Notes under the pieces: generated by a model | Databases searched by the model: none | The model's input: the letters and a program-made list of their open reading frames with translations, nothing else | Told to the model about the DNA's origin: nothing | From: Agarophyton chilense | Lineage: Eukaryota > Rhodophyta > Florideophyceae > Gracilariales > Gracilariaceae | Assembly (NCBI GenBank): GCA_030374765.1 | Contig: JARGXX010000004.1 | Location: forward strand, 682,001 to 746,000 | Length of the DNA stretch: 64,000 bases | Reading direction: 5' to 3' | Shown here: positions 5,704 to 55,058 of the stretch, one piece after another | Position numbering within the stretch: position 1 is the stretch's first letter | Layout: the number at the start of each line of letters is the position of its first letter | Program-made: the position numbers and the translations under genes

Positions 5704-7653
5704 GTGATTGTACGACAGATGGGTCGATTGCGAACACGCGATTCGACACCCCCAGCAAGTGGAGCAGGACCGGCGTCTGCCGCCGCCCAGATGCTCTCCC
5801 CTGCTAGGGATGTCACTCTCCATCCCAGCTTTGCAGCTGTGGAAGAGCAACTTAGCTCTATGCGGGAAGCTCAAGTCATCCTTGCACAGGAGTTCGATTC
5901 CCTTCGCAAAAAGGTAAATGACACTGCTACGCAGGATTTTTCTGAGGACCTCCATGTCCTCCGTGCGGATGTGAACTCGATTCTAGAGTCCCATGGTGGA
6001 CCCTCGGCCTCCGTCAAGGACGTCGCGGACAAGTTCTCGCGCGTCCGAAGCCGTCTCGAGACGTTGGAACAAACCCTGGCGTCGGAGGATGATCCGGCCG
6101 AGCCGGTTGTAGTATCCTACAAGGGAAATAAGGAAGAGAATCGCCGCTCTCGAAAGAAGCGAAGAAACACGGATCCCGAACCGTCAGACTCCTCATCCTC
6201 GGCGTCCGACTCTTCCGATTCATCGGTGGGAGTTGCTCGCCGCGAGCGTTCCTCACGCTCAAAGCGGTCAACAACCACCCATGGTGTGATCCGCGCCCGC
6301 ACGAAGGGAAGGAAGCACACAGGTTTGAAGGAGCTGAAACCAACCATTTCGCTCTTTAAGAAGCTCTTATCATAACGGTACTACCGTTTGGAGGACTCCT
6401 CTTTGGATCGTACACCCCGTGGTACGGGAAGAGTGAAGGACTGCATTAAGCGAATGCAGCTCTCACTACGAAACCAGTTGTTTTCTGGAGAAGACCCAAT
6501 ATTGGTGTTGGATTTCTTGGCACGCTTTTTCGCGAAAGCTGACATCCTTGGAATGAACGAGGGAGAGGCCTATATTGCCTTACCGTACTTCTTACGTGGG
6601 CTTGCAGAAGACCAGTATCACTCTGTCAGAGGTTCATCACGTGCCTTCGAAGGAGGAGTTACATGCTGGCCCGAAGCAGTTCAGTACCTCTTAAGGTCGT
6701 ATGCTACTAGCTCCGCCATTCAGCAGGCTATACTAGCCCTGCGGGACACTCGCCAACGTCCAGGCGAGTCAAAAACCGATTATTCGTCGCGCCTTAACAA
6801 GGCCCTCCACCGCTGTGGCAATGTTTACCCCACTGAAGAGCGTTGTACCATGTTTTTCGATGGTTTGGACCCGGCGATCCGGACTCTTGTTGCTCGACGT
6901 CGAGAAGATAGACCCAAAGCCACGTACTTGGAACTAGTGCAGTTCGCTCGCGCAGAAGGTGAAGCCCTGCGCGCCTGCACTCCTGGATCCAGGCTTAGAT
7001 TCGCAAAAGCGTTGATGTTACAACCGGGTACCCCGTCAGCTTCGATGATCGACGAACAGGCCTCTCGAAGGGATTATAATAACGTGCAGCTAGCCCATAG
7101 CGACGTTCATTCCATCCCGAAAACGAAGTTACCCTCAATTTTGGACGAGTCACCATATGTGATTGAAGATGACACGCTACTCTATGCGGATAATGGTCAC
7201 GTCCGTGCGCCACGCGTCCCACATGAGAGTGGTAATGTCCGCTTTTCCCGTCCTGTTTGGAGAGATACCCGCCCAGCGGTGAAGTTCGCTGAGCCTCGCC
7301 ACCCAACACCGGCTTCTGGTCTGATTTGTCACCTTTGCTACAAACCAGGCCATACTTCTCCACAATTTGTGTTGTCTCTCCGAGAATGGGCACAAGTCGT
7401 AGTCAATTACGAGGCCCTATCCCAGGAGGACAAAGCAGCTGTTCCAATTGCATCGTATATCCGTGCTCGAACGGATGTTCCACGACACGTGTCGCCTCCC
7501 CGAGCTCGGGTGGTACCAGCACAGGATTCCCGTGTCACCGACGTGGTCGGTCACCCCACCGCTTCTGCGGTACCTTCTGGACCTGATGCCCAGGCGTTGC
7601 CCGTTCAACGCCCTGAGCAGCCGCCTTCGGCGGAGCAGGCCCAGAAAAACTAA
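5704..7653 (+). pseudogene. gag polyprotein, interrupted by one stop
   Basis: One reading frame from ATG 5704 to TAA 7651-7653, broken by a TAA at 6373-6375. The N-terminal part has a coiled coil (VEEQLSSMREAQVILAQEF), an acidic Ser-rich stretch and a basic stretch (RRERSSRSKRS). The part after 6388 is the capsid-like retrotransposon gag domain (EAVQYLLRSYATSSAIQQAI, LNKALHRCGN, MFFDGLDPAIRTLVARRRED, YLELVQFARAEGEALRACTP). A zinc knuckle follows near 7330 (CHLCYKPGHTSPQF), where the last Cys of CX2CX4HX4C is Phe. The tail is Pro/Ala-rich. An earlier Met at 5719 is also possible as start. Confidence 0.85.
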
Positions 7654-7655
7654 AT

Positions 7656-9608
7656 GTGGGAGTCTCCTCTCAAGGAGGGGCGCCCTCAGAGTCGAGGTCG
7701 ATGGCGCCCGAGGCGTCCAAGCCTTGCTCTCCGGTCAAAATTTTTTCAAGGAAGGAAGCCGTCAATGATGTGAACTCGGAACACTTTAGTGTTCTGCGTC
7801 GTCCGTGGAAACGTGCCTTCCATAACCGGTTCCCGGATAAAGTTCTGGTGATGGCCAAGAGAAACTACAAGGTCTATGTTGACCTTGGCCTTTCACCCCA
7901 GTTTATGGTGCGACACCTTACCGTCTTAGACACCGGTTCCGGTCCGAACTTTTTCGTGGAGGAAGTGTTACCGCCTGCTTTGCAGTCTAGGATCCGCCGC
8001 GACCACGTCCCGGAGGTCGCGGACGCGAACAACAAACCGTTGGATACGGTGGGGTTCATAGAACTGGTAGTGCGCGTTGGCACTCGCGTGATGAAACTCG
8101 ACTTCGTCGTATGTCGGAAATTAGCCGCCCCAGTCATCTTGGGTTGTGACTTTTGCGACCGCTTCGTCGAAGCGATCTTCCCCCGCCAACGGCGTGTCGA
8201 GATGGAGGATGGATCGTCCACTCCGATCGTTCGTCGTCCGCATAGGCGTGCCACGAAGAAGAATGTCCCGCTACCGGCAGCACAAGAACCTGGACCGGAT
8301 AACCGTGAATCTAGTAAGGTCCGCGTCGCAGCGTCGTTGTGCGTCCTGCCTGAGTCCCAAATGATGGTGAAAGTAACCTCGCGTCAACACTGACTCCGGG
8401 TCTTGCAACCATTGTCGTCACTGTATGACAGGCACAGCCTCGCAATTGCAAATGGAATCGTTCATGTGGAGCCAAACCAACCGTTTCACGTGCTGATCGC
8501 CAATCTAGGGACTGTACCCCAGTATCTGGTGAAGAACCAATTGATAGGGTCCGTCATGCCGCACCCCATCGCTATGGTGCCGACAAAGCTGACTGCAGCT
8601 GACGTTCTCGGACTCGTTCACTCTAAGGAAGGGGACAGCCCGGAACCCGTTTTATCACCGGTACCCGGGGTTCAACCTGTAACATCAGGTACGCAGCCCG
8701 TTTCAACGAGTGGTGACCGCCCCGATCCAGTCCAAGAACTCGAGGATCTGGACCTCAGCCACGTCCCGGAGTCACACCGCCATCGATTGCAAGAACTCTT
8801 GAGGGAGTTCACCACTATGTGGGACAGCTCCCTTGGTGAGATTGCCACTACGGAACACCAGATTGATTTGCTACCGGACACCCGACCCATCTCTCAGCAC
8901 CCATACCGTGTCGGACCCGCCGCACGCGAAGAGGAAAAGGCACAAGTGGATAAAATGCTTCGAGTAGGAGTCATTGAACCGGCTCAGTCGCCGTGGGATT
9001 CTTCAGTAGTACTGGCTCCAAAGCAAAATGGTTCCTGGAGGTTTTGCGTCGACTACCGTCGGTTGAATGCCGTCACGGTCAAGGACGTGTATCCAATCCC
9101 AATAATGGACGAGTACATTGACTCGCTAGGCACCGCCACCGTCTTTACAACCCTGGACGCCAATTGGGGACACTGGAAAGTTCCGGTAAGGAAGCAAGGC
9201 CAGGATAAAACCGCTTTCGCTTGTCATTCTGGTCTCTACCGTTGCAAACGGATGCCTTTTGGTTTTACCAACGCCCCCGCTACTTTCCAGCGAGCCATTG
9301 ACATCCTATTGGTCCGCTTCAAATGGCGTACCTGCCTGGTCTACCTGGATGACGTAATTGTCTTCTCAGGTAATCTGGACAAACATCTCACTCATGTGAG
9401 AGATATCATGACCACGCTTCGAGATGCGGGTGTCACTCTCAAGTTGAAGAAATGGGACTTCTTCACGAATACAGTGAAGTATCTCGGCCATGTTATCCGT
9501 CAAGGGCTAAAGAACCGCGGACGCAAACCGAGCTTAGTTCCTTTCTGGGACTCGCGAACGTCTACCGACGATTTATTCCGCACTTTGCGGACAAGGCTGC
9601 ACCGTTAA
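7656..9608 (+). pseudogene. pol part 1: aspartic protease and reverse transcriptase
   Basis: This frame opens two bases after the gag stop, in another phase, as expected if pol was made by frameshifting or reinitiation. The protease active site is LDTGSG with the Asp codon at 7929; VILGCDF near 8140 is the second protease block. A TGA at 8391-8393 splits the frame, which continues in phase to 9608. Reverse-transcriptase blocks are RVGVIEPAQSPWDSSVVLAP, WRFCVDYRRLNAVT, FTTLDANWGHWKVPV, RCKRMPFGFTNAPATFQRA and the catalytic YLDD at 9342-9353. After about 9520 the product is out of phase; the thumb region continues in the next frame. Confidence 0.88.
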
Positions 9609-20095: not shown

Positions 20096-20645
20096 TTAAT
20101 GGACATCAAACGCCGTGCCGAAGCGCCTGTCTGAAAGTTTCAGGGTGAACACAGGTTAGGACTATTCCGCTGGTTAAATGTGTGCAATTCGGTAGCAGCA
20201 GAAGCAATTTGCGGAGAGATTATTAACGTAGGTTCCCAAGCGCCGCCCTTTTCCCCAAACCGTCACTGTGTACAATAAGAGTATTCGGCATGCTCGTCAG
20301 GCATAGCGGCGGTAATTCTATGCATCAGGCGTGTATTGCCCCATCATGGAAGGAGCCGATTTGAAGGGATTCGAACGAAAGAGCTGCGTTTGTTGTGCAC
20401 GCTGCTGCGCATGGTCAAGCGCTTGCCCAAGAGATGCCATTGTGACCCTTCGCGTTCTCTTCTAGTTCACAATCTCAACAAATGGCTGCGCCACGTGTGG
20501 AAGAGCGGTTTTGTTGTACGACCTCGCATTCTGTCCACGAAAGCGGAGTTATCGCAACAAACAATGTGGCGCTTTCTTCCACCTCACCCCCCCTCCCCTC
20601 CCACCTTTAATCGCCTCTATCTATCCATCCACCATTCTGCCCACT

Positions 20646-21431
20646 ATGCTTGCCAGGTTACGAAAGGTCTACTTGTCTGCACCGGGCCCGCAACTGCCTT
20701 CTGACCCACTAGAAGCACTCAAGCTTCTAATCGAACCCCAAGCTCGAAACGAAGCCACCTCCAAGTTTCTTACCGACACCACCTTGAAGCGGTACCTCGT
20801 CGCCCGAAATGACGATCCATCCAAGGCCTTCAAACAGATTTCCGACACTCTTTCGTGGAGACTATCATACCATCCGCAAAGCCTGTACCTAACGCATAAA
20901 CAATCTTTGCACCATGAAGCGCAATCCGGAAAGATGTACATTTTGCCAACCCCCGATTGTCACGGTAGAGCCATCATTCTTATGAGACCCGGACTTGAAA
21001 ATTCTACGAATGGAGCAGCAAATATTCGACATCTTGTATATACTCTGGAACGAGCTTCGACTCTATCTGAACAACGTGGTGATGGCAAATTCATCGTCAT
21101 AGTTGATTACTTCACAGGAAAAATTTCCGCGTCAACCTGTCCTTCTTTGTCGACCATGAAGGAAACCACTCACATTTTGCAGACACATTATCCTGAGCGG
21201 TTGGGCGGAATGTTGTTTTACGAGGCTCCTTCATTCTTTCTTGGTTTGTTCAAGATGATTCGGCCCTTTATTGACCCGGTGACGAGGGATAAGTTGCGCT
21301 TCGTGAAGAGAGGAGAAAGTGTTGAAGCGCCGTTTTTGGATTGGGATGCAATCCCTCTCAAGTACGGTGGACGCTTACATTATCAGTTTGATGTCGAAAA
21401 GTATTTTGAATGTGAACAAGAATCGCAGTAA
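20646..21431 (+). CDS. Sec14-like CRAL-TRIO lipid-transfer protein
   Basis: 261 residues from the ATG at 20646 (CACTATGCTTGCC). The frame is open further upstream, but that portion is Pro/Ser-rich and probably untranslated. The N-terminal CRAL-TRIO-N helices contain FLTDTTLKRYLVARNDDPSK and ISDTLSWR, giving the usual L-R-F-L-R-A-R-like pattern. The lipid-binding domain shows HGRAIILMRPGLEN, GKFIVIVDYFTGK, THYPERLGGMLFYEAPSFFL and MIRPFIDPVTRDKLRFV, all at family-typical spacing. These proteins bind and exchange phosphatidylinositol and other lipids between membranes. At 261 residues it is a compact, single-domain member with no GOLD or other C-terminal module. The ligand cannot be predicted. 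Confidence 0.88.
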   Translation: MLARLRKVYLSAPGPQLPSDPLEALKLLIEPQARNEATSKFLTDTTLKRYLVARNDDPSKAFKQISDTLSWRLSYHPQSLYLTHKQSLHHEAQSGKMYILPTPDCHGRAIILMRPGLENSTNGAANIRHLVYTLERASTLSEQRGDGKFIVIVDYFTGKISASTCPSLSTMKETTHILQTHYPERLGGMLFYEAPSFFLGLFKMIRPFIDPVTRDKLRFVKRGESVEAPFLDWDAIPLKYGGRLHYQFDVEKYFECEQESQ

Positions 21432-22446: not shown

Positions 22447-23442
22447 ATGGCTCGTGGCGCACCTCTGACACGCTCTGAACAGCTCGAAATCATGGAATTA
22501 GTAGGTCAGGGTATGATTCCAGCAGATATAGCCCGAAAACTCAAGCGCAGCCCAAAAACAATCAGCAACTTCATCAAAAACCCCGCTACATACGGAACAA
22601 AGCGTTCAACCGGCCGTCCTACGGCACTATCCCCGGCCGATAAGCGCGGAATTAAGCGAGAACTATGTCGCAACACTTCATCTTGCGGGAAAATTGTCAA
22701 AAACCTAAATTTGCCTCTATCAAGATCTACAATATGGCGTGAAGTCAACCGTCAAAATTTGTTCAAGTACACAAAAATGAGGAAAACTTTTTTTTTAAAA
22801 GATAATCACAAGAAAAGTCGAGTTGAATGGTGTGCTCAAAAGGCTTATTGGAAAACTGAATGGAATAATGTTATCTTTTCCGACGAAAAAAAGTTTAACC
22901 TTGATGGTCCAGATTGCTATAAATTTTATTGGCATGATCTACGAAAAGAAAAGAAGGAATTTGTGACTAGGCATTCAGGAGGCGCATCAGTAATGGTTTG
23001 GGCTGGAATCTCCACTAAAGGAGCAACTGATATGGCTTTTGTTGAAACTACAATGAACTCTGAGAAGTATGCTGAGGTTCTAGAAAACTATCTTTTACCT
23101 TTTTCATACTGTATGCATGGAGAAGAATTCATTTTTCAGCAAGATAATGCACCTGTGCATAAGTCTAATTTTATGAAACAGTGGTTCAATAGTCTAAATA
23201 TGTCGGTTATGGAATGGCCTGCGCGCTCTCCTGACCTCAACCCTATCGAAAACATTTGGGGAATGTTGGCCCGAATGGTTTATGGGCAAGGAAGGCAATT
23301 TGATACAGTTTTTGATCTGAAAAATTGTATCAAAGATTGTTGGGAAAAGATTGACTGTAATGCCATCAATCCTTTTATAGAATCAATGCCAAAGCGTTGT
23401 ATAAGTGTTATACAGGCTAAAGGAGCAAAAATAAACTACTGA
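22447..23442 (+). CDS. Tc1/mariner transposase
   Basis: 331 residues, full length for the family. The N-terminus has paired helix-turn-helix domains: LTRSEQLEIMELVGQGMIPA then DIARKLKRSPKTISNFIK, and a second around SRSTIWREVNR, with a GRP hinge (STGRPTALS). The DDE catalytic core is complete: VIFSDEKKFNL (Asp 1), FQQDNAPVHKS (Asp 2), SPDLNPIENIWGML (Glu). The final spacing fits the Tc1-like DD34E group. It performs cut-and-paste transposition at TA. The reading frame crosses a T10 run near 22788, which is a weak point for frame stability but is still open. The gene is more AT-rich than its neighbours, consistent with recent arrival. Confidence 0.92.
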   Translation: MARGAPLTRSEQLEIMELVGQGMIPADIARKLKRSPKTISNFIKNPATYGTKRSTGRPTALSPADKRGIKRELCRNTSSCGKIVKNLNLPLSRSTIWREVNRQNLFKYTKMRKTFFLKDNHKKSRVEWCAQKAYWKTEWNNVIFSDEKKFNLDGPDCYKFYWHDLRKEKKEFVTRHSGGASVMVWAGISTKGATDMAFVETTMNSEKYAEVLENYLLPFSYCMHGEEFIFQQDNAPVHKSNFMKQWFNSLNMSVMEWPARSPDLNPIENIWGMLARMVYGQGRQFDTVFDLKNCIKDCWEKIDCNAINPFIESMPKRCISVIQAKGAKINY

Positions 23443-23779: not shown

Positions 23780-26700
23780 TCAATCACAAGTACGACCCTG
23801 GTGGACACCTGCCAGTCCTGATCTCTCTGTCTCCACGGTATCCTTAACTCCGTTTCGATATAAGCGCAAGTTGGTCATGACTGCCGCGGTACACCTTACA
23901 ATGAATTCATCGAGAGGAACATCAGAAATGTCATATCCAAATGGATCTGACAACTCAGAGGCCCATACTTCAATCCCGTGTACTCCGTATGTGATTACAC
24001 CAACCCACAAAACCGTCAACCAACCACTTGATTCGATCAATGTCAGCGGCAATAAAACCAACCATATCACCAAAAGAATTCTCAAATGTTGAACGTATCC
24101 AAACGGAAGAGGCACTCGTATGATCGTGCTACACTCGAAGGCCGCCTCTTTCATCATGTGCAAATATTTCAGTATAATTTCTACTTCTTGTGTTGCTGCA
24201 GGATACAACACATTGCTCTCGTTAGAATACATTCTCTCTCCGTTTGCCACATAGTTGTGAACAACATCCACACAGTAGTTTGCTTTTGCTTGTGTTGACA
24301 AAACTTTTTGCGTATCTGCATCACCTAATACATGTTCAAGTTCGTCTCGGCAATCCGTCCCACGTAATTCGCTCTTCAGAGCAATTGGGAAAGCGACTAA
24401 ATGTGCCGCAATTCGCTCTATATCTTCAGAATGCCAGAACTCTGGTGTGTAACTTTCAAAAATTCGATTGCTCACAAGATGCAGACTCAAAAAGACACCC
24501 TTTTGCCAAATTTGGATAGCTCTCGCATACCTTCCATGGCTATCTAAGAGACGAAAACCGAGCAGCAAGAAAAGAGCAAATCCGATGTATCCCGCAACAG
24601 AACTGTCAAGGGCGATGCGGGAACAGAACCATGGCTTGCAAGATTCGTTAAACTTTCCTTCGAACGGAAAATATTTCGCAACCAACCGTGCTAGAGCGAT
24701 GGAAATTGCTGTCCATAACGTCATGTAAACCATGGTTGGAGGAGATATAGCATTGGAAGCCAGTTTCAACTTCCCCATCACTGAAGGGCGAAGACTACCT
24801 GAACTTGGTGTTGCAGGCGATAGCGTTCTCCGCGTTTTCCAAAACGGCTTCACGTCAGACCATTGACTGAGCCCACGTCCGTCGCACTTGTAATACTTTC
24901 CGATGAAGAGGATATCTGAAACTATCTTATGGGCAAATGTGTCTAGATCAAAATCATTCATATCTGACCCAAAGGGATGTTGAATCTCTGCTGCAATGGT
25001 GTACATTCTGAAGACGAACAATGATGTTAGTCATTCCTCGTGTCGCACTTCCGCAAAAAATGTAAACACCAGGCACTTACCCCAGAACACCGAATCCTAT
25101 GATGAAGACCCATAGAATAGTGAACCAGCCTGCAAACGAGAGATTGAATAAAGTTAGCAAATCACGTACAGGATCATTTGAGTAAACGTACATTCTTAAC
25201 CTACCAGAAATCTCTATCAAAGCGAATGGCAAAATCAAGAACCATATACCAAGAAGCGCATTCAAAAGTGATAAGAATCCAGGGGCTACAGGAAAAGAAG
25301 ATAGAAAATCAGACTGCTGTATAGCCTTCTCTAATAACTCCATCTCATCTTCCATTGCAAAAAACCGTGACCCGTATGGTATCATCATTGACGCATACTC
25401 CGGCCTATCGGCGGCTGTGATTTGATATGTTTTGATCACTTCGACGCAGTATCGGGACATACTTTCAGCACAATGAACACGAGCAAGGTCTTCACGAGAG
25501 AGAAGTCCTTTGACTTCTCGAGTGTCCCGAGAGTTCCTCAACTCACTTTTTAAAATAAGTGGGATTGCTGCGATGTGAGCAATTACACGATCGTGGTCCC
25601 CTTTGTGAATCGATCCGCTCTCAAACAAAGTGAGGAAGTGTACTGCAAGTGAGCGGCAGGAAGAGTGAAGCATACTAGCCCATACATTGCCCGCCTCCTT
25701 GTATCGGGTGAAAGCCGCATTCACGTAGAATCCAAGAAGAAGAAAAGCTATATCATTTGGCAAAACAAAACAAATGGTCAGAATCGGGCATAAGCTCAAT
25801 TACGTCAATACACTCGACATCAGCTTGGGTTGCGAAAACAGAAGGCTCAAACATACCTGCAAATGAAACATAAGTACTCACGGGCTTATCAAGACTAAGT
25901 TGCGAAAACCACCATTTTGACATTTCAGATCGATTTCTAGACACAAACGATATCACAGTTGCTAGACTTGTATAACAAGTTATTAAAGTCAGAGTCGTCC
26001 ATGGCACGGAATGGAGCAAATGGGAGTATAAGTTGGCAGGCGTTCTCAATTCCTCAAGTCTATCAAAATGCGATAGTGGATCACATCCAAACAGTTGGGA
26101 GGGCTTCTCGAGGCGCGGGAGGGAATAACGATTTCCCACATGTCCATTTCGAAGTGAGACTCCCAATTCGGCGTCGGAATCCGGAGGAGATGGTTTAATG
26201 TACAGTTGACAGTCCCAACCGGCGCTGTTAACACCATCTAAAACAAACGTGGCTGCTTGAAGACACATATGCTCTACGGGTATGTCAATGTCGTCGTTTC
26301 CATACGGATCGACGAGTTTGATAGAAATTTCTTCGAGAGCAAGCACACCGTAGGATATAATAGGAGCCAAAAGGAGTGTAAAGAATCCTGTGGTAGGCGT
26401 CATTGCAAATGGAAGCAACACAAGCCAGATTATTGTGAAAAAGCTTTGATGGTCAGTGTAACTCTTAACCACGGGAAAGCGCTTGACCGTGAATGCTTTC
26501 TGAAGAAGCTCCCTTATAGTAGCCGTCCTGTTTAGCATCAAGAGTACCATTCTTCCTCGACATTGAGGATCCCCAATGGAACAAACTTCCGAGCTTTTCT
26601 TGTCTTGTAGTATGATATATGTTTCGATCGTTTGAAGTAAGTGAGAAAGAGGATCTCTTTTGTTTTTCAGTTCTTTCTTGTCTGCATTCGAAAGCAACCC

Positions 26701-29700
26701 ATCTGAATCTCCCATCACATTTTCACCTTCGCTCAAAAGCTGCCTCCGAAACGATAGAGGTACTTGCACAATGTGCGCTACAATTCGTTCCTTGTCGTTG
26801 TTATGAAACGTCCCCTCCCCAAATGTTTGACAAAGCTCTATCGCAAGCGTTCTCAAATTCATCTTCAAGTCAAAGATGAGCCTAACGCCGTCTTCATACC
26901 TTCCTATCGCGTCAGAAGCACGGAACGATAAAATCAGGAACAATGCAAATCCAACATTTCTCAATACCCCGAGATCGACATCAATCGGACTACACCATCC
27001 ATGGCATCCAGTTCTTCTAGCATTAGTCCACCAAAAAGATAGCGTATATGATACCAATACAGATACTAAGTTCCATAATATAACCAGGACCATGTCCCTG
27101 GTTCTGAGCGATGGAACGCGCTGAAGAAGTTGAGATATAGATGACAAGAGTGAAGGGGCTTCATCAAACTGCCTTGACTTCAACCACTTCCAAAGCGAAA
27201 ACTGGCTGTGGTTCCTTGACTCGGCTTCATTGAGAATTTGCATCTTATCTTCTCTCGGTTTGAACAACTCTCGTGAATAATCCGATTCATGAACATGGTC
27301 AATGGTTCCGCATTGATTGTTTTGGTATATTTCGTACAGAGAATGTTTAATCTCCTGACAAAAGGTGTCTAAAGGAATATCGTGTTCATCGGAACCAAAA
27401 GGATCGGAAATCTCCTTACCAATCTCGAGCAGTTTCATGACCGAAAACCCGATTGGAATGATATAAAAGAAAACTAAAACCCCATTGAATTTGACGAGTA
27501 ATAGTGGTAAAAGTGCTAACCAGAAGATAGTGAAAACCTCGAGATGCATCGTTAGTGACGACGAAATAGGGAAGCTATGTATTGCCACACACTCTTGAAC
27601 TGCGATTCCAATATCCCTCAAAGCATATGCGACTGCTTGCTCACTATTTTTTAGCGGAGAACCTGGAAGGGCACAGATTTGGATATTGCCGCAGTCAAGA
27701 CTGTTAATGTAGCCGTAAATGACATCCATGGCGTGCTCGAAAAGATTATCGGCTTCATCAAACGCTGCGACATCGTTCTTAGACAGAATTTCGTGCAACT
27801 CTGAGGTATCTCTAGAGTCCCGAAGCACCTGCTTTGCGGTGTACGGCAACGCCGCCAAATAAGAAAAGAGACGCTCACGATCTCTTGCATGCCATGCATG
27901 AAGATTGCAAACAATGGAAAAGAAAAGTGCGGCTTGCTCAATCCTAGGTTTCACACTGCTCTGCCACAATTCAATTCCTCTCGAATATCGCTTGTAGGCA
28001 TCATTCAACCAAAAACCAAGAATAAGGAATAATCCAAGACTCAAATACGCATCAGTTGAACTGCTGAAAGGGAGGTCGATGCACCACCACCGACAGGAGC
28101 TATTATCATTTGATCTGGTATACATCCAAACGTAGGATACAACGAGAGCGGTCCAAAGTAACAAGATAAGGAGAGATAATGAGAAAGTCCTTGAGCTACG
28201 ACCGCTCTGAGCAAGTGAAAACAATGCTCCGGTGTTCGAGCGCTGACCTTTGCTCCGATCAGTAATGTTTGTAAAAGTTGAAATGTTTTGGCTTGGTTGT
28301 TCAAGCCACAGTGGAGTATCGTGGTGTGGATCGATTGTTGAAAGGTAATCAAGTTTCTCTGAGGAAAAAACTTTGATCAATCGAAGAGAAGTCTCCGCGG
28401 CCATTTGATTGAGTTTGATGTCCTGCATGTCGTATCCAAACGGATCATTAAGAGCTTGCGCAATGCTGAAGAGCATAGCGATGCTGTAAGAAATAAGAAC
28501 TGTCCATAACACAGTATACCTGACCAAAGGAGGGATGTTAGGTTTATGAAAGTCGTATTCGAAAAAGAGGTTCGGAAATGAGTACTTACCACCCGCTCGT
28601 TGCAACAATGGTGAGAGGAAGAAAAAACATCCAGATGTAAAGGAAAACTTCCAAATGATTGACGTATCCAGCTGATGGTTTGAATTTAGATATTGTTAAT
28701 AGAACGCCAGAGTGAGCGTCAATGGAATCAACATTATTCATGATCAAATGGCGGGTGGAGAGACCAGCTGGGCTTTTCTGCATTGCAGTAGAAGCGAACG
28801 AGATGGGTGCATCATCCTGTGCGGCACTGAAATACGTACGGACAATTCTGGTGCAATGGAAGGGCATAATCTGGGCTTTAAGGAGATCACGAATATCTTC
28901 AGGACAAAGAATTCCCTCGAGCTGCTGATGCTCTCTTTCTCCCCTCAAATGCATCTTCAAAGCGATTGGAAGAGCAACAAGATGGGCTGCAATGCGCTCT
29001 ATATCACCTGAATGCCATGAGCCAGTCGGAAACGCTTGGCGAAGATCCCTGATGACGTATCGTAGATGGGCAGACATGTGGGACCAATTAAGTTGTGCCT
29101 GCCAATATCGATTACTAGCTTCTCGGATAAAGAAACCGAGAAGGGTAAAAAGAGCCCATCCAACACCATATGAAACGGAAGGAGAAACCGCGAGATGCGA
29201 TGTCCAAAACTTTTTTGAAGAAGACATGGCATTAGTATAGACTAGAGAGAAAGAAGCGACTGTTACGATTAAACTCCAAATTACTTGAAGAAGAAGAATG
29301 GTTTTCGGAGCCGTGTTCCAAAGCAGATCCAGAAAACAGAAGTCAGAAGAGTTTGGTTCGGGGGGTGCTGAACCAAGTTTTCGGGTTTCTGCAGATTCTT
29401 CAAGACGAAGGGCGAGGGACCTAAAAGAAAAGGAATGATAAGAAGCGGCTGTGGCTGATATGAGTGGCGCTTCCTCATCAGGAGCGTGAAACGTAGACAT
29501 GGACTCCATGGGTGTGGAGGATGTACAAGGCGTTAAAAATCTGTTGGGAGCTGCAATAAAGATGTGATGGGCAGTCGCAGTGGGCGGGTGCATGCGGGCT
29601 CTCCTACCGAGCCTACACCTCGCTGCAGTTGTGAGGCAGAAAAGTGTAGCTGAAGGACAGCGAAGCTTTGCTCTTGATGGTTGTGGGTCTAAAGTTGCCA

Positions 29701-29701
29701 C
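23780..29701 (-). CDS. Single gene encoding five tandem bestrophin-like channel units
   Basis: Minus-strand gene in five exons: 29701-28590, 28519-25857, 25747-25205, 25129-25081, 25007-23780. Introns (70, 109, 75, 73 bp) begin GTAAGT, GTATGT, GTAGGT, GTAAGT and end in AG; splicing leaves one frame of 1,864 codons, or 1,800 if translation starts at 29509. Each of five units of about 350 residues has a TM2 neck block (unit 5: GFALFLLLGF, then GRY), a helix with RIAAHLVAxPIALK-like sequence, a hydrophobic LPLTLIExSGWLTVLW-like segment, and a bestrophin DPFG-like motif (NDPFGYDMQDI, SDPFGSDEHDI, VDPYGNDDIDI, QHPFGSDMNDF, SDPFGYDISDV). Bestrophins are anion/bicarbonate channels and homopentamers; five fused units suggest a single-chain pentamer. 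The N-terminus is Arg/Ser/Ala-rich (transit-like), or from 29509 has DEEAPLI, a dileucine-like sorting signal. The membrane is undetermined. Confidence 0.85.
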
Positions 29702-31007: not shown

Positions 31008-32174
31008 GTGCTCATCTTTCCGGTGCCCTACGCCCTGCGATCTTCGCCGCAGCCACCGTGCTCAGCATCTACGGGGAAATCCGGCATGCGTCATCCGGAC
31101 CAATACCAAATTCCGCCTAGAACAACCCACCTTGAAGGCCGAACGAGGAACGGAGACTATGTGAAGACTATCCACCTTCGCTCAGAAAGTGGAGCTGAGG
31201 CCTCTATTCTAACAAGGGGTGCGCGTCTTTTAGATCTGCGCTTTTCAAAGGGTCCTAACCGCCTCATAACATACAACGATTTATCTGGTGTTGAACATGA
31301 CTGCGCTTTTGTCAATGTCGTGATTGGGCGAATCGCCAATCGCACGCGAGGTGGAAAGCTGCTCCGACATCCCGAAATTGATTCCCAGGCTCATCTAGAG
31401 TTAAATGACCAAGGACGCCATCACATTCATGGCGGATCCAACTCTTGGGATAAAAGGCTATTCTGTGTGCAAAGGAAAACTGAAAACATGGTTGAATTGA
31501 CCATGTTGTCACCCGATGGGGACCAAGGATATCCAGGGGGCCTTGAACTAACTGTTCGATATGAGCTTGTTGGTGACGTGCGTCTTAATGTAACGCTGAG
31601 CACGAAAAACGTGGGTAGCGAGCCAACGCTTTGTAACTTAACGTTGCACCCTTACTTCGATCTCAGCGGAGAAGGTGGTGTGGTTGAAGGTTCTGTACTT
31701 TCTTATCGCATGAAAGCCAGTCGTTGTGAACAATATCTCGTTCTTGATGACGATAACGTTCCAAATGGTGTCATCGCTTCAGTGCAAGGTACGCGTTTTG
31801 ACTTCACTAAAGATCGGCCAATACATGATGGATCAATAGAGATGAAGGGGTATGATAACTTCTGGATCGTGCGAAAAAGTCCAGAAAACAAGGATCAAGG
31901 ATTGCAGTCTATGGTCACTTTCCTTCATCCAGGGCAAACCCCTGGTAAGGGAGTTAAGATGGAAATACTTAGCGACCAGCATGGATTTCAGTTTTACACA
32001 GCGAACGGTTTTGACGGATCCGGAAATGAGAAGTTTGCCAAGCATGGAAGTATTGCGGTTGAACCTAGTGACTTCATTGATGCTGCAAATCACGACAACT
32101 TTCCTTGTATAGCACTTGGGCCGAGTGAGACGAAAACGCAGTGCATGTCATACGAATTAAGCATATTGGAGTGA
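31008..32174 (+). CDS. Aldose 1-epimerase (galactose mutarotase family)
   Basis: Intronless, 388 residues from ATG 31008, or 362 from ATG 31086, which also fits the conserved domain. It interconverts alpha and beta anomers of aldoses such as galactose and glucose. Family blocks in order are VVIGRIANRTRGGKL (substrate-binding Asn-Arg), HHIHGGSNSWDKRLF (first catalytic His in the HGG region), LTLHPYFDLSG (second His of HxYF), YDNFWIV, LSDQHGFQFYTAN and IAVEPSDFIDAANHDNFP (the catalytic Glu near the C-terminus). Length agrees with GalM-type enzymes. The extra N-terminal part from the first Met (MLIFPVPYALRSSPQPPCSA) might be a targeting sequence or untranslated. It has no sugar-metabolism neighbours. 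Confidence 0.9.
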   Translation: MLIFPVPYALRSSPQPPCSASTGKSGMRHPDQYQIPPRTTHLEGRTRNGDYVKTIHLRSESGAEASILTRGARLLDLRFSKGPNRLITYNDLSGVEHDCAFVNVVIGRIANRTRGGKLLRHPEIDSQAHLELNDQGRHHIHGGSNSWDKRLFCVQRKTENMVELTMLSPDGDQGYPGGLELTVRYELVGDVRLNVTLSTKNVGSEPTLCNLTLHPYFDLSGEGGVVEGSVLSYRMKASRCEQYLVLDDDNVPNGVIASVQGTRFDFTKDRPIHDGSIEMKGYDNFWIVRKSPENKDQGLQSMVTFLHPGQTPGKGVKMEILSDQHGFQFYTANGFDGSGNEKFAKHGSIAVEPSDFIDAANHDNFPCIALGPSETKTQCMSYELSILE

Positions 32175-47100: not shown

Positions 47101-47647
47101 AGTTGGCGATGGGAGATGACAATTGCGAGGAAGTGTTTGTAGTTTGTAATTTGGGTGCGAGGTGCGTACCAAATTTTGGTGGAATCCCGCTCGGCTCGCG
47201 CTTTGCTAACGGTACCGTTGGTGCCGTTGGTACTGTTGCATGAAGCAATGCGGCCACCAAGGTGCCGTAACGCCCAACAACTTGGGATCAGCTCAAGAAT
47301 CCAACAATCCAAAACGCAACGTGTACCGGATACTTACAGCATCACGTCTGGTTGGTTGCTGTAAAGTGGTACCGGTACCTGGTGCCGGTAACTGGTGCCA
47401 CACAGCGTGTGGTCTCAAATTGCGTTCACGCGCCGTGGCGGTTCGTCACCAGCGGTCGGTTTGTTTCACGACGCACCGTGAAACACCGCATTCTGTCTGC
47501 GGCCGTAGGCGCACATTCCATCCGTCCCACGCGCCGCTCCCCTGTCTTCACAGTCGTCTTCCTCGATTTGCTTTCCTCCTACACCCACAGCCCCGGAAAC
47601 GGTTGCTGGTATACACTCTGACGAATTGTACCCCTCGGGTTTCTTTC
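44165..47647. other. Spacer of about 3.5 kb with no recognised gene
   Basis: Several 60-190-codon ORFs occur on both strands (for example 44269-44853 minus, 44471-45031 plus, 46770-47312 minus), but none has a domain, a family motif or a credible composition. A G14 tract is at 46669-46682 and G9 near 46999. 47205-47405 contains clustered GGTACC-related words, including GGTACCGGTACC. The last few hundred bases must contain the chlH promoter. Confidence 0.4.
46669..46682. repeat. G14 homopolymer tract
   Basis: Fourteen G residues between TTGAT and CATC; no assigned gene is near enough to suggest a role. Confidence 0.9.
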
Positions 47648-50600
47648 ATGAGCGCCGCCTTTGTCGCCCCGCTTCCCCTACTAGTCAGTCCTCACAATGC
47701 CGCGTCCGTGCAAAGACGTCCACCGGCCGTATCCGTGCGTTATCGCACCACCAGTGTTCTCCCCGCCCCGAGTGCAGCTTCTCGGGCGGCTTCTTCCACA
47801 ACACCGCCGAGGGCGTCCACGTCTCTCGCTCGAATTGTCTTGATTGCTGGCTTTGAAACTTTCAACCTCAGCACGTACAACCTGGCCAGTGCCGAACTTC
47901 GCCCACTTGATGTCGTGTTGCACGTTTTCACTGAACGTGATATCGAATCCCAAAGCGATGATCTTCAACGAGCGTTGCGTGATACCGACGTGGCGTTTTG
48001 TAGTCTTCTGTTCGACTATGACCAAGTAGAATGGCTCAACAAGCGTCTTGAACAAGCTCCACTTGTGTTTGTATTTGAGAGTGCGCTAGAGCTCATGTCA
48101 CAGACAAGAGTTGGCTCATTTCATATGAGCAACGCATCCAGCAAGTCCTCCTCCTCCGGAGGTATGCCAACTGCAGTAAAGATCATTCTGAAAAAGCTTG
48201 GCATAGTTGGACGTGAAGAAGACAAACTTGCTGGTTATCTTGCTTTGTTGAAGAATGGACCAAAGTTCCTGAAATTCCTACCGGGTAAGAGAGTGCGCGA
48301 CCTGAGAAACTGGCTTTCGGTGTACGCCTATTGGAACGCTGGTGGCGTGGATAACATTGTCTCTATGTGCAAATATATTGTCCAGCACGTGTTGGAGAAA
48401 CAATTGCCTTCCGAGCAGCAGTCCATCCCGCAAGTGACACAAATTCCTAATGTGGGGTTGCTGCACCCTGATTACGATGGCTTCTTCGAACACCCGGCAC
48501 AATATCTTCAGTGGCATCAGAACCGCTTTCCTAAACGTAAACAACTGCCACGCGTTGCTGTCTTGCTTTATCGAAAACATGTCGTCTCGCGATTAGATTA
48601 CATCCCCAGGCTCTTACGGTACATGGAAGAAGATGGCGTCGTGCCGGTTCCAATATTCATCACTGGCGTCGAGGCTCATATCGTCGTGCGCGACTTTCTC
48701 ACGTCTCGGCACAAGGAAGAAGCACGGTCCAGAGGGGACCGCATGTACGGTAGTTACCGACAGGGGAAAACGTGTCTTGTCGATGCCGTGGTGTCCACAA
48801 TTGGGTTTCCACTGGTAGGAGGGCCTGCAGGCTCAATGGCTGGCGCGCGAAACGCCGAAGTTGGAAAGAAAATCCTGCAGCAGATGAACGTCCCGTACGT
48901 AATTGCTGCCCCTCTCCTCATTCAGGATCTGCGGACATGGCATGAAAAAGGTGTTGCGGGGCTGCAGTCTGTCGTCCTGTACAGTCTTCCTGAACTTGAT
49001 GGCGCGATTGACACCGTGTGCATTGGCGGCCTGGTTGGAAACCGAATTTATCTAGTCAAAGATCGCGTTAAACGTCTGACAGGGCGGCTAAAGAAGTGGA
49101 TCTCCTTGCAAAAAAAACGGAACCATGAGAAGCGCGTAGCAATTATTGTGTACGGTTTTCCGCCGTCAGTGGGTGCCACTGGCACTGCGGCGTTGTTGAA
49201 TGTGCCCAAATCCGTTTTGAACATATTGCGACGACTGAACGAAGAAGGGTATGATGTTGGTGATGGACATACAAAGTCTCCCGAAGAGATACTCAGGCTT
49301 GTAAAAGAGAACGATCAAGTGCTGGAAGGAGGCAGTCTCTGCGGAAAGTCTGCCCGAGAGATGCTCGAAAGCACGACGAAGGTAGAATCATCGGATCTTC
49401 GCAGGTGGATCGGCTTCCGGAATACCAGGCGTATCGAATCCGCGTGGAATGGCGAACTTGGGTCCTCGAATAACATCAAGACTACCGAGAATAAACATCT
49501 ATTGGGAGGCGTGAGCTTTGGAAATATATGGATAGGTGTTCAGCCACCGCTAGGCATAGTCGGAGATCCCATGAGGATGATGTTTGACAGAGATCTCACT
49601 CCGCACCCCCAATATGCGGCATTCTACAGATGGCTTGAAGAAGGCTTGTGCGCGGATGCCATGATCCACGTGGGTACCCATGGTACCTACGAATGGTTGC
49701 CAGGAAACGCGTTGGGTAATACGAAGGAAAACTGGTCTGACCTTTTCGTCGGTAACATTCCAAACTTGTACGTTTATGCTGCGAATAACCCAAGCGAGGG
49801 GTCTCTAGCAAAGAGACGTGGATACGCTACGATTGTGTCGCACAACGTACCGCCATACGGCCGAGCGGCGCTTTACGGACAGCTCGAAGAAATGAAGAAT
49901 CTCGTGTGGGAGTTCAATGAAACGAAGCAAATGGGAAACCCGGATGAGAAGCTGACGGAGATTCGCAAGATGATGGAAGAAAAACTTGTCACATCCGGGC
50001 TCAACGTTGATCTAGGTGTTGACAACGCACAAGACATCGATGACATGGAGTTCATCGGGAAAATTTCTTTGTATCTGAAGACTCTGGAGTCTCGACTGTT
50101 TTCTTCTGGGCTGCACGTGTTTGGTCAGAAACCTTCGCACGACGAGGCCGTGGGTTACGTGGAGGCGATCGTAGGCGACGACTCAGAGGGCGTTGAAGAG
50201 AAGGATCGACTCCCCCTGGCGCGTGCGATTGTGGCTTCCAAGATGGGAGAGCCGTCCCCCGGGGATTGCGAAAGTTGGACGTCGTTTGATGTGACCAAAT
50301 ACGCTGAGCTAAGCTGCTACGAGAAGGCGACGGAGGTGTTGCCGAGGCTGTTGGAAACCGAGCGCGAGCTGGAGGGTATCGTTCGCGGGCTCAATGGTGA
50401 GTACATCGAAGCTGTGCCCGGAGGTGATTTGTTGCGTGATGGCGCAGGCGTTTTGCCGACGGGGGCAAACATTCACGCGCTGGACCCGTACAGGTTACCG
50501 TCTCCTGCCGCTTTTGAGACCGGGCGGGCGATCAGTGAGCGCACAATTCGGGTTCACAGGGAAGCCAACAACGGTGAGTACCCTGAGACGGTGGCAGTTC

Positions 50601-51733
50601 CTCTTTGGGGTCTGGACAACATCAAAACAAAAGGCGAGTCTGTTGGAATAGCATTGGGATTCATCGGAGCCAGGCCTGTGTTGGACGGAACCGGGCGGGT
50701 TGTGCGCTTTGAGCTGGTGGACATTGACGAGCTGGGTCGACCGAGAATAGACGTGTTGCTGAACCTGAGCGGAATTTTCAGGGATTCGTTCGAACACGTC
50801 GTATATCTGCTGGACGACGTATGCCGCAGAGCTGCGGACGCGGATGAGCCTGTGGAAGTGAACTTCATTCGCAAACACGCGCAGAGCATGTCGGAGGGGG
50901 CGGAGGATGTGGACGGGGGTGCGCGCATTTTCTCAAACCCGCCGGGCGACTACGGCTCCATGGTGAACGAACAGGTGGCAGATTCGACGTGGGAAAGCGG
51001 GGATGAGCTGGCGGAAACGTTCGTGAAGCGCAACTCATACATATACGGGCGGACGGTGAACGGCAAATGCGACTCGCACACGCTGCGAAAGATGCTGTCC
51101 ACCACGTCGCGGGTCGTACAACAAATTGACAGCGTGGAGTACGGGCTGAGCGACATTCAGGAGTACTATGCGAACACTGGGGCATTGGTTCGGGCGGCGC
51201 GCAAGGAGAGCAAGAATGAAAAGGTGAGCGCGACGATTGTGGAGTCGTTTGGGTGCGCGCGCGACGGAGGCAAAGGACGCGATCCGAAGGAGTTGGAGCA
51301 GGTGTTGCGCATGGAGGTGCGAACAAGACTGCTGAATCCGCAATGGGCTGACAAGATGCTGCAGAACGGGGCCGGGGGGGCGTTTGAAGTGTCGAGCCGA
51401 ATGACGGCGCTGATCGGGTGGGGCGGGACGGTGGGGTACGGGGACGATTTTGTGTTTGAGCAGGCGACGGAGAGATATGTGCTGGATGAGGAAAACCGCA
51501 GGCGGATGAAGCAGAGTTCGGCGGAGGCGTATAGAAACTTGTTGTCAAGGTTGCTGGAAGCGGCGGGTCGGGGGATTTGGAGCAATGCGGACGAGGAGCT
51601 GCTGCGGAGAATCCGAGAGGAGCTGGAGGACGTGGATAGCGAGATCGAGGGCGTGGGAGCGCGAGGGGACGGGAGAGGGGGGGAAGGCACGTCCGAAGGC
51701 GCGTCCGAAGGCACGGTGGGAGCGCAAGGATGA
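47648..51733 (+). CDS. chlH: Magnesium chelatase subunit H, plastid-targeted
   Basis: 1,361 residues, intronless. It is the porphyrin-binding subunit of Mg-chelatase, which with ChlI and ChlD inserts Mg2+ into protoporphyrin IX, the first step committed to chlorophyll. The start is at 47648; the frame is open further upstream, but MSAAFVAPLP gives a typical red-lineage transit peptide with an early Phe, followed by a Ser/Ala/Arg-rich stretch. The mature part begins near ARIVLIAGFETFN. Diagnostic blocks are HFDYDQVEWL-like N-terminal domain sequence, SFGNIWIGVQPPLGIVGDPM, MIHVGTHGTYEWLPGNALGN (from residue 672), NLYVYAANNPSEGSLAKRRG and VSHNVPPYGRAALYGQ. Length agrees with ChlH (about 1,330-1,400). 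The C-terminus ends in a Gly/Glu-rich low-complexity tail. It converges with the SNF4-type gene, stops only 50 bp apart. Confidence 0.95.
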   Translation: MSAAFVAPLPLLVSPHNAASVQRRPPAVSVRYRTTSVLPAPSAASRAASSTTPPRASTSLARIVLIAGFETFNLSTYNLASAELRPLDVVLHVFTERDIESQSDDLQRALRDTDVAFCSLLFDYDQVEWLNKRLEQAPLVFVFESALELMSQTRVGSFHMSNASSKSSSSGGMPTAVKIILKKLGIVGREEDKLAGYLALLKNGPKFLKFLPGKRVRDLRNWLSVYAYWNAGGVDNIVSMCKYIVQHVLEKQLPSEQQSIPQVTQIPNVGLLHPDYDGFFEHPAQYLQWHQNRFPKRKQLPRVAVLLYRKHVVSRLDYIPRLLRYMEEDGVVPVPIFITGVEAHIVVRDFLTSRHKEEARSRGDRMYGSYRQGKTCLVDAVVSTIGFPLVGGPAGSMAGARNAEVGKKILQQMNVPYVIAAPLLIQDLRTWHEKGVAGLQSVVLYSLPELDGAIDTVCIGGLVGNRIYLVKDRVKRLTGRLKKWISLQKKRNHEKRVAIIVYGFPPSVGATGTAALLNVPKSVLNILRRLNEEGYDVGDGHTKSPEEILRLVKENDQVLEGGSLCGKSAREMLESTTKVESSDLRRWIGFRNTRRIESAWNGELGSSNNIKTTENKHLLGGVSFGNIWIGVQPPLGIVGDPMRMMFDRDLTPHPQYAAFYRWLEEGLCADAMIHVGTHGTYEWLPGNALGNTKENWSDLFVGNIPNLYVYAANNPSEGSLAKRRGYATIVSHNVPPYGRAALYGQLEEMKNLVWEFNETKQMGNPDEKLTEIRKMMEEKLVTSGLNVDLGVDNAQDIDDMEFIGKISLYLKTLESRLFSSGLHVFGQKPSHDEAVGYVEAIVGDDSEGVEEKDRLPLARAIVASKMGEPSPGDCESWTSFDVTKYAELSCYEKATEVLPRLLETERELEGIVRGLNGEYIEAVPGGDLLRDGAGVLPTGANIHALDPYRLPSPAAFETGRAISERTIRVHREANNGEYPETVAVPLWGLDNIKTKGESVGIALGFIGARPVLDGTGRVVRFELVDIDELGRPRIDVLLNLSGIFRDSFEHVVYLLDDVCRRAADADEPVEVNFIRKHAQSMSEGAEDVDGGARIFSNPPGDYGSMVNEQVADSTWESGDELAETFVKRNSYIYGRTVNGKCDSHTLRKMLSTTSRVVQQIDSVEYGLSDIQEYYANTGALVRAARKESKNEKVSATIVESFGCARDGGKGRDPKELEQVLRMEVRTRLLNPQWADKMLQNGAGGAFEVSSRMTALIGWGGTVGYGDDFVFEQATERYVLDEENRRRMKQSSAEAYRNLLSRLLEAAGRGIWSNADEELLRRIREELEDVDSEIEGVGARGDGRGGEGTSEGASEGTVGAQG

Positions 51734-53282: not shown

Positions 53283-54081
53283 TTAACACTGCGGCTGCTG
53301 CTGCTGCTGCTGCTGCTGCGGCGGCGGCGGCGGCGGTCTGCGCGCGCGCGCGCGGCCACGACGCGCGCCGCCGCGCGACCGCGCACGCGCGCCACGCCGC
53401 GCACTAGCCACGGCGGCGTCTCCAAACGTCTCCACGTCGGTACGGCGTCTCTGCGCGGCGTTGCGCTCGCCCCTCATTTCCTTTTCCGGCACGAGGTCGT
53501 CAAAGAAGCTTTTCTGCCGGTCGTACAGCGGCGCGACGCGGCCCGTGTGCGCCGGTCGTTCCAGCCGGTCGTTGCAGCCCTCAAAGTCGTAGTCCTCGTC
53601 CGGCACAATCGGTGCGCCGCCTCCGCCTCCGCCTCCTCCGCCTCCTCCGCCTGCACGGGCCACTCGTCGGCGCGCGCGCGTGCGACCGCGCGACGCGCCG
53701 CCTCTTCGGACGCGCGCGCGCGCGTCGCCGTCGCGCTCGTCGCGCGGCGGCGGCAGCGACGCCTTCGGGGCGCGCTGCGGTGGCTGCGGTGGTGACGGCG
53801 GCGGCGGCGGCGGCGGCGGCGCGAGGGAGGCTTCGCTGGACAGGCGTGGGGCGTGCGACGCGCGTGGCGGGGCGCGCGAGGGACGGAGCGTGGGGGGCGG
53901 GCCCCACGCGCGAGGCGTCGGTCCGCGCGGTTGCGGCGGCGGCGGCGGCGCGGCGGGCGGCGCAGTGGTTGCCGACGCAGCTGCGGCTGTAGTTGTTGGT
54001 GCAGCTGCGGCTGCGCGGCGCGCTTGCGGGGCCGCCGCAGCGGCCGCCACCGCCGCCTTTACCGGGCGCAGCGAAGGCGGA

Positions 54082-54117
<36 letters not shown>

Positions 54118-54428
54118 TGCAGGAACTGTAGATCGCTGATGTCGGCGCCGTGGAACACAATGTACGAAAACACGCGGTCGGAAGGGCGCACGGGGCCGGC
54201 GGGGCGCGGTCGCCCCTCGGTGCCGAACGAGCGCACGTCCTTGAGCGCCACGGTCGACGCGTTGGTATCGATGGTGTACAGCGTGCCCACATAGCGGATG
54301 GCCGACTTGGAGATGAGCGAGATACGCGAGCCCACGTACGGCAGACGCGCCGGCGCGGCCGTCGTCGGCGTCGACGTTGTTGCTGCCGGCTGCTGTTGCT
54401 GCTGTTGCTGCTGCTGCTGCGTGGCCAT
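53283..54428 (-). CDS. LSM14: LSM14/Scd6/RAP55-type mRNA-silencing protein
   Basis: 381 residues from the Met at 54428; the open frame extends to 54584, but the upstream part lacks conservation. A short polyGln start leads to the LSm14 domain (about 29-104): [60 protein letters not shown] polyPro run (about 105-118) and a long Pro/Ala/Arg-rich disordered region follow. Near the C-terminus are the FDF-type motif (DYDFEG, 279-284), the FFD box (SFFDDL, 307-312), the TFG box (RRTDVETFG, 328-336) and an RGG-like Arg-rich stretch, ending in polyPro/polyGln. This is the full family architecture. These proteins bind the DEAD-box helicase DDX6/Dhh1 and decapping factors, repress translation and help form P-bodies. 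The gene is divergent to phosphofructokinase. Confidence 0.93.
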
Positions 54429-55058
54429 GACGACGGCGGGCGGGGGAGAAGCGCGGTGGGGCGGAAGGGCGGCGCCACCAACAAGACGCAGCGGAGCGCG
54501 CGCGTCAACGAGCGTCGGCCGCGCAACACAGCCAGCCAAAGCGCAACGCGCCAGTCGACGACGCGCGCGCACACACACACACACACACAGTCAAGTCTCC
54601 ACGTGGTCGCATGGCATGCGTGTCCACGTGGTCACGTCGCATGCGTGTCACAAAACAGAAAAGCAAAATCGAGTCACACGGTTGGGTGGGTGTGACGCCG
54701 TGTGACGCCGTGTGACGCCGTGTGACGCCGTGCACGCCGTCGCGCTCGCTCACGCGCCGCGCAGGCAAAAACAACCGCACCACAACGCCACACACGCACA
54801 AACGACACACACGCACAACCACGCCGTTGACGCGCTCACGCCCCCATCTATCTACACGCTATCTCTCGTTCCCGCCCGCTTCACTGTGTGTGTGTCTCTC
54901 TCACACCACAGCAACGGCTGCTGTGCTGACCGCATTTCCGCTGCGCCTCCTCCGCTGCGCCTCCTCCGCTGCGCCTCCTCCGCTGCGCCTTCTGTGTCTT
55001 CTTCTTGCTATTCCCCCGTCGTCACCCCCTCCCCCAAAACCTCCTCCCCCGCTTAGCC
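54429..55058. promoter_or_regulatory. Repeat-rich divergent promoter between LSM14 and phosphofructokinase genes
   Basis: 630 bp separate the two start codons. Visible elements are a (CA)n tract (54571-54589), two 25-bp direct repeats each with the palindrome CCACGTGG and GCATGCGTGTC (from 54599 and 54624), four exact 10-bp TGTGACGCCG units (54691-54730), and about 3.6 copies of CCGCTGCGCCTCCT (near 54948-55000) in the PFK leader. CACGTG is a G-box/E-box and TGACG a bZIP half-site in plants. Use in this organism is inferred. Confidence 0.6.
54691..54730. repeat. Four tandem 10-bp TGTGACGCCG units
   Basis: Exact tandem repeat with one helical turn per unit, followed by a degenerate TGCACGCCG. 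It lies about midway between the divergent LSM14 and PFK start codons. Confidence 0.9.

Follow-up and report, generated by a model that had tools for sequence, protein, structure and literature searches.

Bestrophins are textbook homopentamers, and the locus examined here raises the question of whether the five units of such a channel can instead be encoded, in fixed order, by one gene. The locus lies in a 64,000-nt stretch of Agarophyton chilense DNA (the window; coordinates are positions within it), where a gene on the minus strand, running from 29593 to 23780, encodes five bestrophin units. We put the probability that this gene encodes a single-chain bestrophin pentamer, one chain making one pentameric channel, at roughly three in four. 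A first-pass annotation had proposed a covalent pentamer of this kind, in which the order and stoichiometry of the subunits are fixed. That proposal is favored because the five units lie in one frame and their order and number are conserved in paralogs and relatives; judged from these comparisons, a covalent pentamer with fixed order appears to fit better than any rival, closure of the ring being the conditional part.

Translation of the spliced sequence gave a single open frame, 1,828 codons long before its stop, encoded by five exons. The four introns, of 70, 109, 75, and 73 nt, all begin with GT and end with AG, so the architecture described in the first-pass annotation was borne out. Its length estimate, about 1,800-1,864 codons, agreed with the 1,828 codons counted from the first in-frame ATG, at 29593, whereas 1,864 codons were reached only from a GTG at 29701. 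The parts of the gene are listed below; the introns are compared with four five-unit paralogs (L026-L029) as frame breaks at unit positions, not as exact splice sites.

Exon 1, 28590..29593, minus strand: N-terminal tail and approximately the first three quarters of unit 1.
Intron 1, 28520..28589, minus strand: 70 nt; frame break at the same unit position in 4/4 paralogs.
Exon 2, 25857..28519, minus strand: end of unit 1, all of units 2 and 3, start of unit 4.
Intron 2, 25748..25856, minus strand: 109 nt; break at the same position in 3/4 paralogs, absent from L026.
Exon 3, 25205..25747, minus strand: middle part of unit 4.
Intron 3, 25130..25204, minus strand: 75 nt; break at the same position in 4/4 paralogs.
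Exon 4, 25081..25129, minus strand: 49 nt; GW block of unit 4.
Intron 4, 25008..25080, minus strand: 73 nt; same place in 3/4 paralogs.
Exon 5, 23780..25007, minus strand: end of unit 4, unit 5, and the stop codon.

In L029, the short exon preceding intron 4 was not detected separately. Exon 2 extends over 887 codons without a stop, beginning in the last part of unit 1, taking in units 2 and 3, and ending within unit 4; this uninterrupted stretch, together with the paralogs, ruled out a reading as separate genes or as a gene with fewer units. By a hand count, introns 1 (28589, unit 1) and 3 (25204, unit 4) occupy nearly identical places in their units, four bases apart, a coincidence that may go back to duplication of the units.

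Each unit comprises approximately 320-340 residues, and the linkers have 32-44 residues in the window protein and a variable length of 23-120 residues in relatives. The limits of the units, their Pfam PF25539 scores, and their residues at the three layers of the neck are as follows.

Unit 1, 28249..29311, minus strand: residues 95-425, containing intron 1; 117.3 bits; neck W/T/F.
Unit 2, 27196..28200, minus strand: residues 442-776; 104.8 bits; neck L/L/F.
Unit 3, 26107..27123, minus strand: residues 801-1139; 100.2 bits; neck F/L/F; motif DPYG.
Unit 4, 24788..26046, minus strand: residues 1160-1493, containing introns 2-4; 131.7 bits; neck F/L/F; motif HPFG.
Unit 5, 23786..24754, minus strand: residues 1505-1827; 138.1 bits; neck F/L/F.

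When scanned singly, all five units matched PF25539 (Bestrophin_2), with E values of 1.9e-28 to 5.5e-40 and scores of 100.2-138.1 bits against a cut-off of 27, which is far beyond chance. Five domains had been anticipated, and a different count had been named as fatal to the idea; the number held, while the family expected did not. PF01062, the family of classical bestrophins, gave no match up to E 0.1 in an hmmscan of the units, where the filters of the tool drop weak matches, and none in a six-frame search of the genome, where a control gave none either. It was replaced by PF25539, the bacterial/fungal-type bestrophin family. The five recurrences of a DPFG-type motif at a spacing of about 343-366 residues were confirmed at residues 360, 707, 1072 (DPYG), 1430 (HPFG), and 1774 (spacing 347, 365, 358, and 344), as was a neck-type block in each unit, found at residues 152, 502, 865, 1227, and 1569.

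The gene has close counterparts in its own genome. A six-frame PF25539 search of the 79.8-Mb assembly (135 contigs), in which counts are lower bounds, gave at least 30 matches grouped into at least seven loci, five of them five-unit and two single-unit, and a query with exon 5 recovered the same seven.

Contig C4, 591-597 kb: five-unit locus.
Contig C4, 706-711 kb: five-unit locus, the window gene.
Contig C4, 1719-1725 kb: five-unit locus.
Contig C16, 268-273 kb: five-unit locus.
Contig C75, 231-237 kb: five-unit locus.
Contig C13, ~1038 kb: single-unit locus L030, matched in two pieces.
Contig C13, ~847 kb: single-unit locus L031, matched in two pieces.

Because the frame breaks of the paralogs fall largely at the intron positions of the window gene, the five-unit gene would be ancestral to the gene family in this genome; the frame breaks of L030 and L031 differ from those of the five-unit genes. 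L026-L029 and the window gene share 34-61% pairwise identity in exon 2 and, from these comparisons, appear as a diversified five-unit bestrophin family.

Beyond this genome, three homolog searches, each scoring 7,989 to 7,997 candidates, yielded 53 proteins, the first search being limited to lengths of roughly 1,000-3,200 residues and giving 25 of them. The five-unit gene is present in the databases but unremarked: a database protein of Agarophyton chilense (P0001) is 100% identical over 91% of the window protein, a Gracilariopsis chorda protein of 1,821 residues (P0003) is labelled 'hypothetical protein', and a Gracilaria domingensis protein of 1,859 residues (P0004) is labelled 'Bestrophin/UPF0187'. 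The recurrence in relatives for which the first-pass annotation had proposed a search was observed, with P0007 and P0008 carrying all five units in single predicted proteins and the order kept across the 53 homologs. Position-specific profiles were trained on six proteins, and every one of the 122 units covering more than 200 profile positions (P0001-P0040 and the window protein) matched its own position best, by a margin of at least 128 bits; the training set accounted for 30 of these units, and five came from P0001, which represents the same gene. In the 53 homologs and the window protein, all 148 adjacent unit pairs read n then n+1, and no unit out of order and no protein with more than five units was found among the homologs.

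Positions 1-2-3-4-5 were held by 24 of these 54 proteins, often with a partial unit 1, and six of the 54, the window protein included, had all five units at no fewer than 240 profile positions each. Weak extra matches below 25 bits that overlapped a partial unit 1 (P0042, P0045, and P0048) had been dropped before the units were counted. The other 30 proteins read '1234' (11), '2345' (2), '45' (12), '5' (2), '3' (2), and '23' (1); 22 of them have an end that coincides, or nearly so, with the position of intron 1, 2, or 4 and look like exon pieces of genomic contigs. Eleven proteins of 397-462 residues (P0026-P0036), considered as single-unit relatives, were rejected as exon-5 pieces since their first residues fall close to, or at, the site of intron 4 within unit 4. 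Among the 53 homologs, no true single-unit relative from outside this genome was recovered, except possibly P0037.

A quick tree was built from 73 rows, namely 70 units from 16 of the first 26 proteins, the single-unit L030 and L031 with hand-made splicing, and a fragment of the bacterial bestrophin KpBest. Each of the five positions formed one clade, with support of 99 or 100 in the Shimodaira-Hasegawa-like approximate likelihood ratio test (SH-aLRT). The single-unit rows fell outside the five-unit family (support 92), L031 being the nearest outside row; according to a warning from the program, L030 and KpBest have long branches and may have been joined falsely. In six proteins, identity between positions was 24-28%, compared with 27-31% to L031, while identity within positions was 41-46% and similar for all five, so constraint is similar at every position. 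From these between- and within-position identities, it would follow that divergence of the five units was early, predating that of the paralogs and species, and that no unit has been relaxed since. The units are approximately 20-24% identical to KpBest. Exon 2 is under purifying selection among the paralogs: across ten pairs, the proportion of nonsynonymous differences (pN) was 0.26-0.50 and that of synonymous differences (pS) was 0.73-0.79 (saturated).

The neck was examined by aligning 104 units of the window protein and P0002-P0025 to KpBest, in which we take I62, I66, and F70 to be the residues forming the three-layer hydrophobic neck. A hydrophobic three-layer neck of the kind found in bestrophin channels was present in this alignment. 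In units 1-5 of the window protein, the I62 layer reads W-L-F-F-F, the I66 layer T-L-L-L-L, and the F70 layer F-F-F-F-F. The F70 layer was phenylalanine in 96/101 units with a residue in the column, and the I62 layer was hydrophobic or aromatic throughout; the I66 layer was partly polar, with T or S in 2/13 position-1 and 11/21 position-4 units. At the I62 layer, tryptophan was the residue in all 13 position-1 units covered in this column and in no unit of the other positions, and leucine occupied 23/23 units at position 2, 1/25 at position 3, and 2/21 at position 4. Because of this position-specific tryptophan and leucine, the neck would be asymmetric in a conserved way if the ring forms. Position-dependent features were also observed outside the neck. 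At least two cysteines occurred in the loop between membrane helices 1 and 2 in 23/25 position-3, 18/20 position-5, and 9/24 position-2 units (in the window protein, in units 2, 3, and 5), and in 0/14 position-1 and 0/21 position-4 units; disulfides may be confined to some of the units. The position-1 consensus carries a conserved block, hdtPxWLE, after the unit.

The units compared have the bestrophin fold, and their similarity to conducting bestrophins was high (Foldseek, VIA; single-chain comparisons, so the ring itself is not addressed). AlphaFold gave a predicted template modeling score (pTM) of 0.73 for a two-unit chain from exon 2 and 0.78 for a three-unit chain, both predicted as single bodies. 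The known structures of bestrophins of this type show pentamers whose hydrophobic neck is narrow. We infer that the ring closes within one chain and that one chain makes one channel, and the same inference extends to conduction, to the ion and the membrane, and to the role of the asymmetry. The five linked units would form a single ring of pseudo-fivefold symmetry enclosing one central pore, and the polypeptide rather than assembly would set the number of subunits at five and their cyclic order at 1-2-3-4-5. By homology, anions (chloride, bicarbonate, or similar) would be conducted through the hydrophobic neck, whose asymmetry would be built in, unit 1 alone contributing the invariant tryptophan. 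Bestrophins have four membrane helices per unit, and since this number is even, each unit would end on the side where the next begins; the linkers would all lie on the cytosolic side of a protein with 20 membrane helices. N-terminal tails, compared by eye only, showed no clear shared targeting signal.

A single transcript spanning all exons had been proposed as a check, and in relatives the outcome was mixed. The EukProt protein P0006 (GEZJ01002761.1, 1,439 residues), whose accession format is presumably that of an assembled transcript, covers units 1-3 and most of unit 4 and passes the positions of introns 1, 2, and 3. Its annotated frame ends 25 residues past GWFTI, inside unit 4. The tail read in another frame encodes 23 of the 24 unit-4 end residues expected from P0004, 23/24 from P0005, and 22/24 from P0003, whereas none of 500 shuffled versions of the tail exceeded 12/24 against P0004. 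The transcript thus appears to reach the end of unit 4, and the frame difference may be an assembly or splicing error.

Several observations weigh against a single-chain pentamer. P0006 is frame-shifted in unit 4 and unit 5 is not seen in it, and the transcript-derived P0037 (GFKZ01002204.1, 321 residues, labelled a complete open reading frame) consists of unit 5 alone and may be a partial or a separate transcript. The spliced gene model is a prediction from genomic sequence. P0022 and P0023 show only units 2-5 in the sequence piece at hand, and P0022, with a methionine start at unit 2, could represent a four-unit form. The pTM values show that units pack, not that a ring closes. Moreover, all five positions go back to one ancestor, so the constancy of five reflects one ancestral event preserved and not repeated evolution towards five.

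These points give some room to other explanations. The inference of the spliced model from genomic DNA, the solitary unit 5 of P0037, and the annotated stop in unit 4 of P0006 are compatible with a gene model in which adjacent separate bestrophin genes or transcripts, or a pseudogene array, were joined artificially. We consider such an artefact very improbable, as units 2 and 3 share one uninterrupted 887-codon exon with the last part of unit 1 and the first part of unit 4, selection on exon 2 is purifying, related species are annotated with single proteins of 1,821 (P0003) and 1,859 (P0004) residues, P0007 and P0008 are five-unit single predicted proteins, and the shifted frame of P0006 runs to the end of unit 4. 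A different objection accepts the ring and denies the function: the protein may no longer conduct and may act as a scaffold or sensor. The low identity of the units to KpBest and the position-1 neck tryptophan in 13/13 units are consistent with this, yet the phenylalanine of the F70 layer in 96/101 units and the high fold similarity of the units compared to conducting bestrophins make it unlikely.

The gene could also encode a polyprotein, whose units are made together, cut apart, and reassembled as a heteropentamer of equal stoichiometry. Such a product would likewise keep five distinct positions in equal amounts, and the variable linkers (32-44 residues here, 23-120 in relatives) would suit it. 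However, a fixed order has no evident value once the chain is cleaved, the hdtPxWLE block after unit 1 does not suggest a free end, and the linkers showed no apparent cleavage motif, though no systematic motif search was made; we regard this explanation as rather improbable. Alternatively, units might be exchanged between neighboring chains, or several chains might form a larger assembly. Artificial concatemers can swap units between chains, and the present results are compatible with it; even so, swapping leaves unexplained why the match of five units to a pentamer was kept across paralogs down to approximately 34% exon 2 identity, and the two- and three-unit chains were predicted as single bodies, so that we hold it to be improbable.

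A single-chain pentamer would depart from the known systems in a defined way. KpBest is a homopentamer, and KpBest and other bacterial bestrophins of PF25539 (PDB 4wd7, 5x87, and 6iv0-6ivw) have one unit per chain and five chains per entry, whereas in the window protein five different units share one chain in place of five identical chains. The plant thylakoid VCCN1 (PDB 7ek1-7ek3) and algal BST1-3 likewise have one unit per chain, compared with five here. Bestrhodopsin combines rhodopsin domains with a single bestrophin, and its channel is made of five such chains (PDB 7pl9, five chains per entry), while the window protein fuses bestrophins to each other. The window protein is thus a bestrophin by fold and sequence that departs from the defining one unit per chain. 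Four-domain voltage-gated Na+/Ca2+ channels place all pore-lining units in one chain, in fixed order and each diverged, and follow the same one-chain logic, although their fold is unrelated and their symmetry is fourfold rather than fivefold. It seems fairly probable that the gene encodes an obligate single-chain pentameric channel that evolved naturally, an ancient fivefold counterpart of these four-domain channels with fixed and different roles for its units around one asymmetric pore, in a diversified red algal family.

If this is correct, a channel of the bestrophin class can escape symmetry, with the number and order of its subunits fixed in one chain and the subunits kept distinct across deep divergence, and the gating role of each subunit becomes testable by mutating single units, something that homopentamers do not permit. 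Its history would parallel, in fivefold form, that of the four-domain channels, and it would offer a natural model for designing concatenated pentamers. No other natural channel with five units in one chain is known to us, from a search that was not exhaustive. In the open-licence PubMed Central literature, no multi-unit bestrophin was apparent from the titles and the starts of abstracts of the papers listed, the transcript accessions turned up in none of them, and no paper combined 'bestrophin' with 'Gracilaria'. In the portions consulted, a review mentions the rhodopsin-bestrophin fusion (PMC11453091), red algae are described as having no BST1-3-type orthologs (PMC11142338), and VCCN1 homologues are reported in red algae (PMC4890181).

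The window contains several other features. Approximately 340 bases separate the stop codon of the five-unit gene from the end of a Tc3/mariner-type transposase frame with DDE_3 and HTH domains (22447-23442, plus strand). The neighboring genes for a CRAL/TRIO domain protein (20511-21431, plus strand) and an aldose 1-epimerase (31008-32174, plus strand) have no evident functional link to the bestrophin gene. Retrotransposon parts occupy 6388-9608 on the plus strand, with a gag-like frame at 6388-7653 and a reverse transcriptase frame at 8403-9608, and a CobN/magnesium-chelatase large subunit is encoded by 1,497 uninterrupted codons at 47240-51733, also on the plus strand. The segment 52001-56000 has a guanine-cytosine content of 66-72%, compared with 42-62% in the other 2-kb windows, and an LSM14-type gene (53283-54584) lies inside this stretch.

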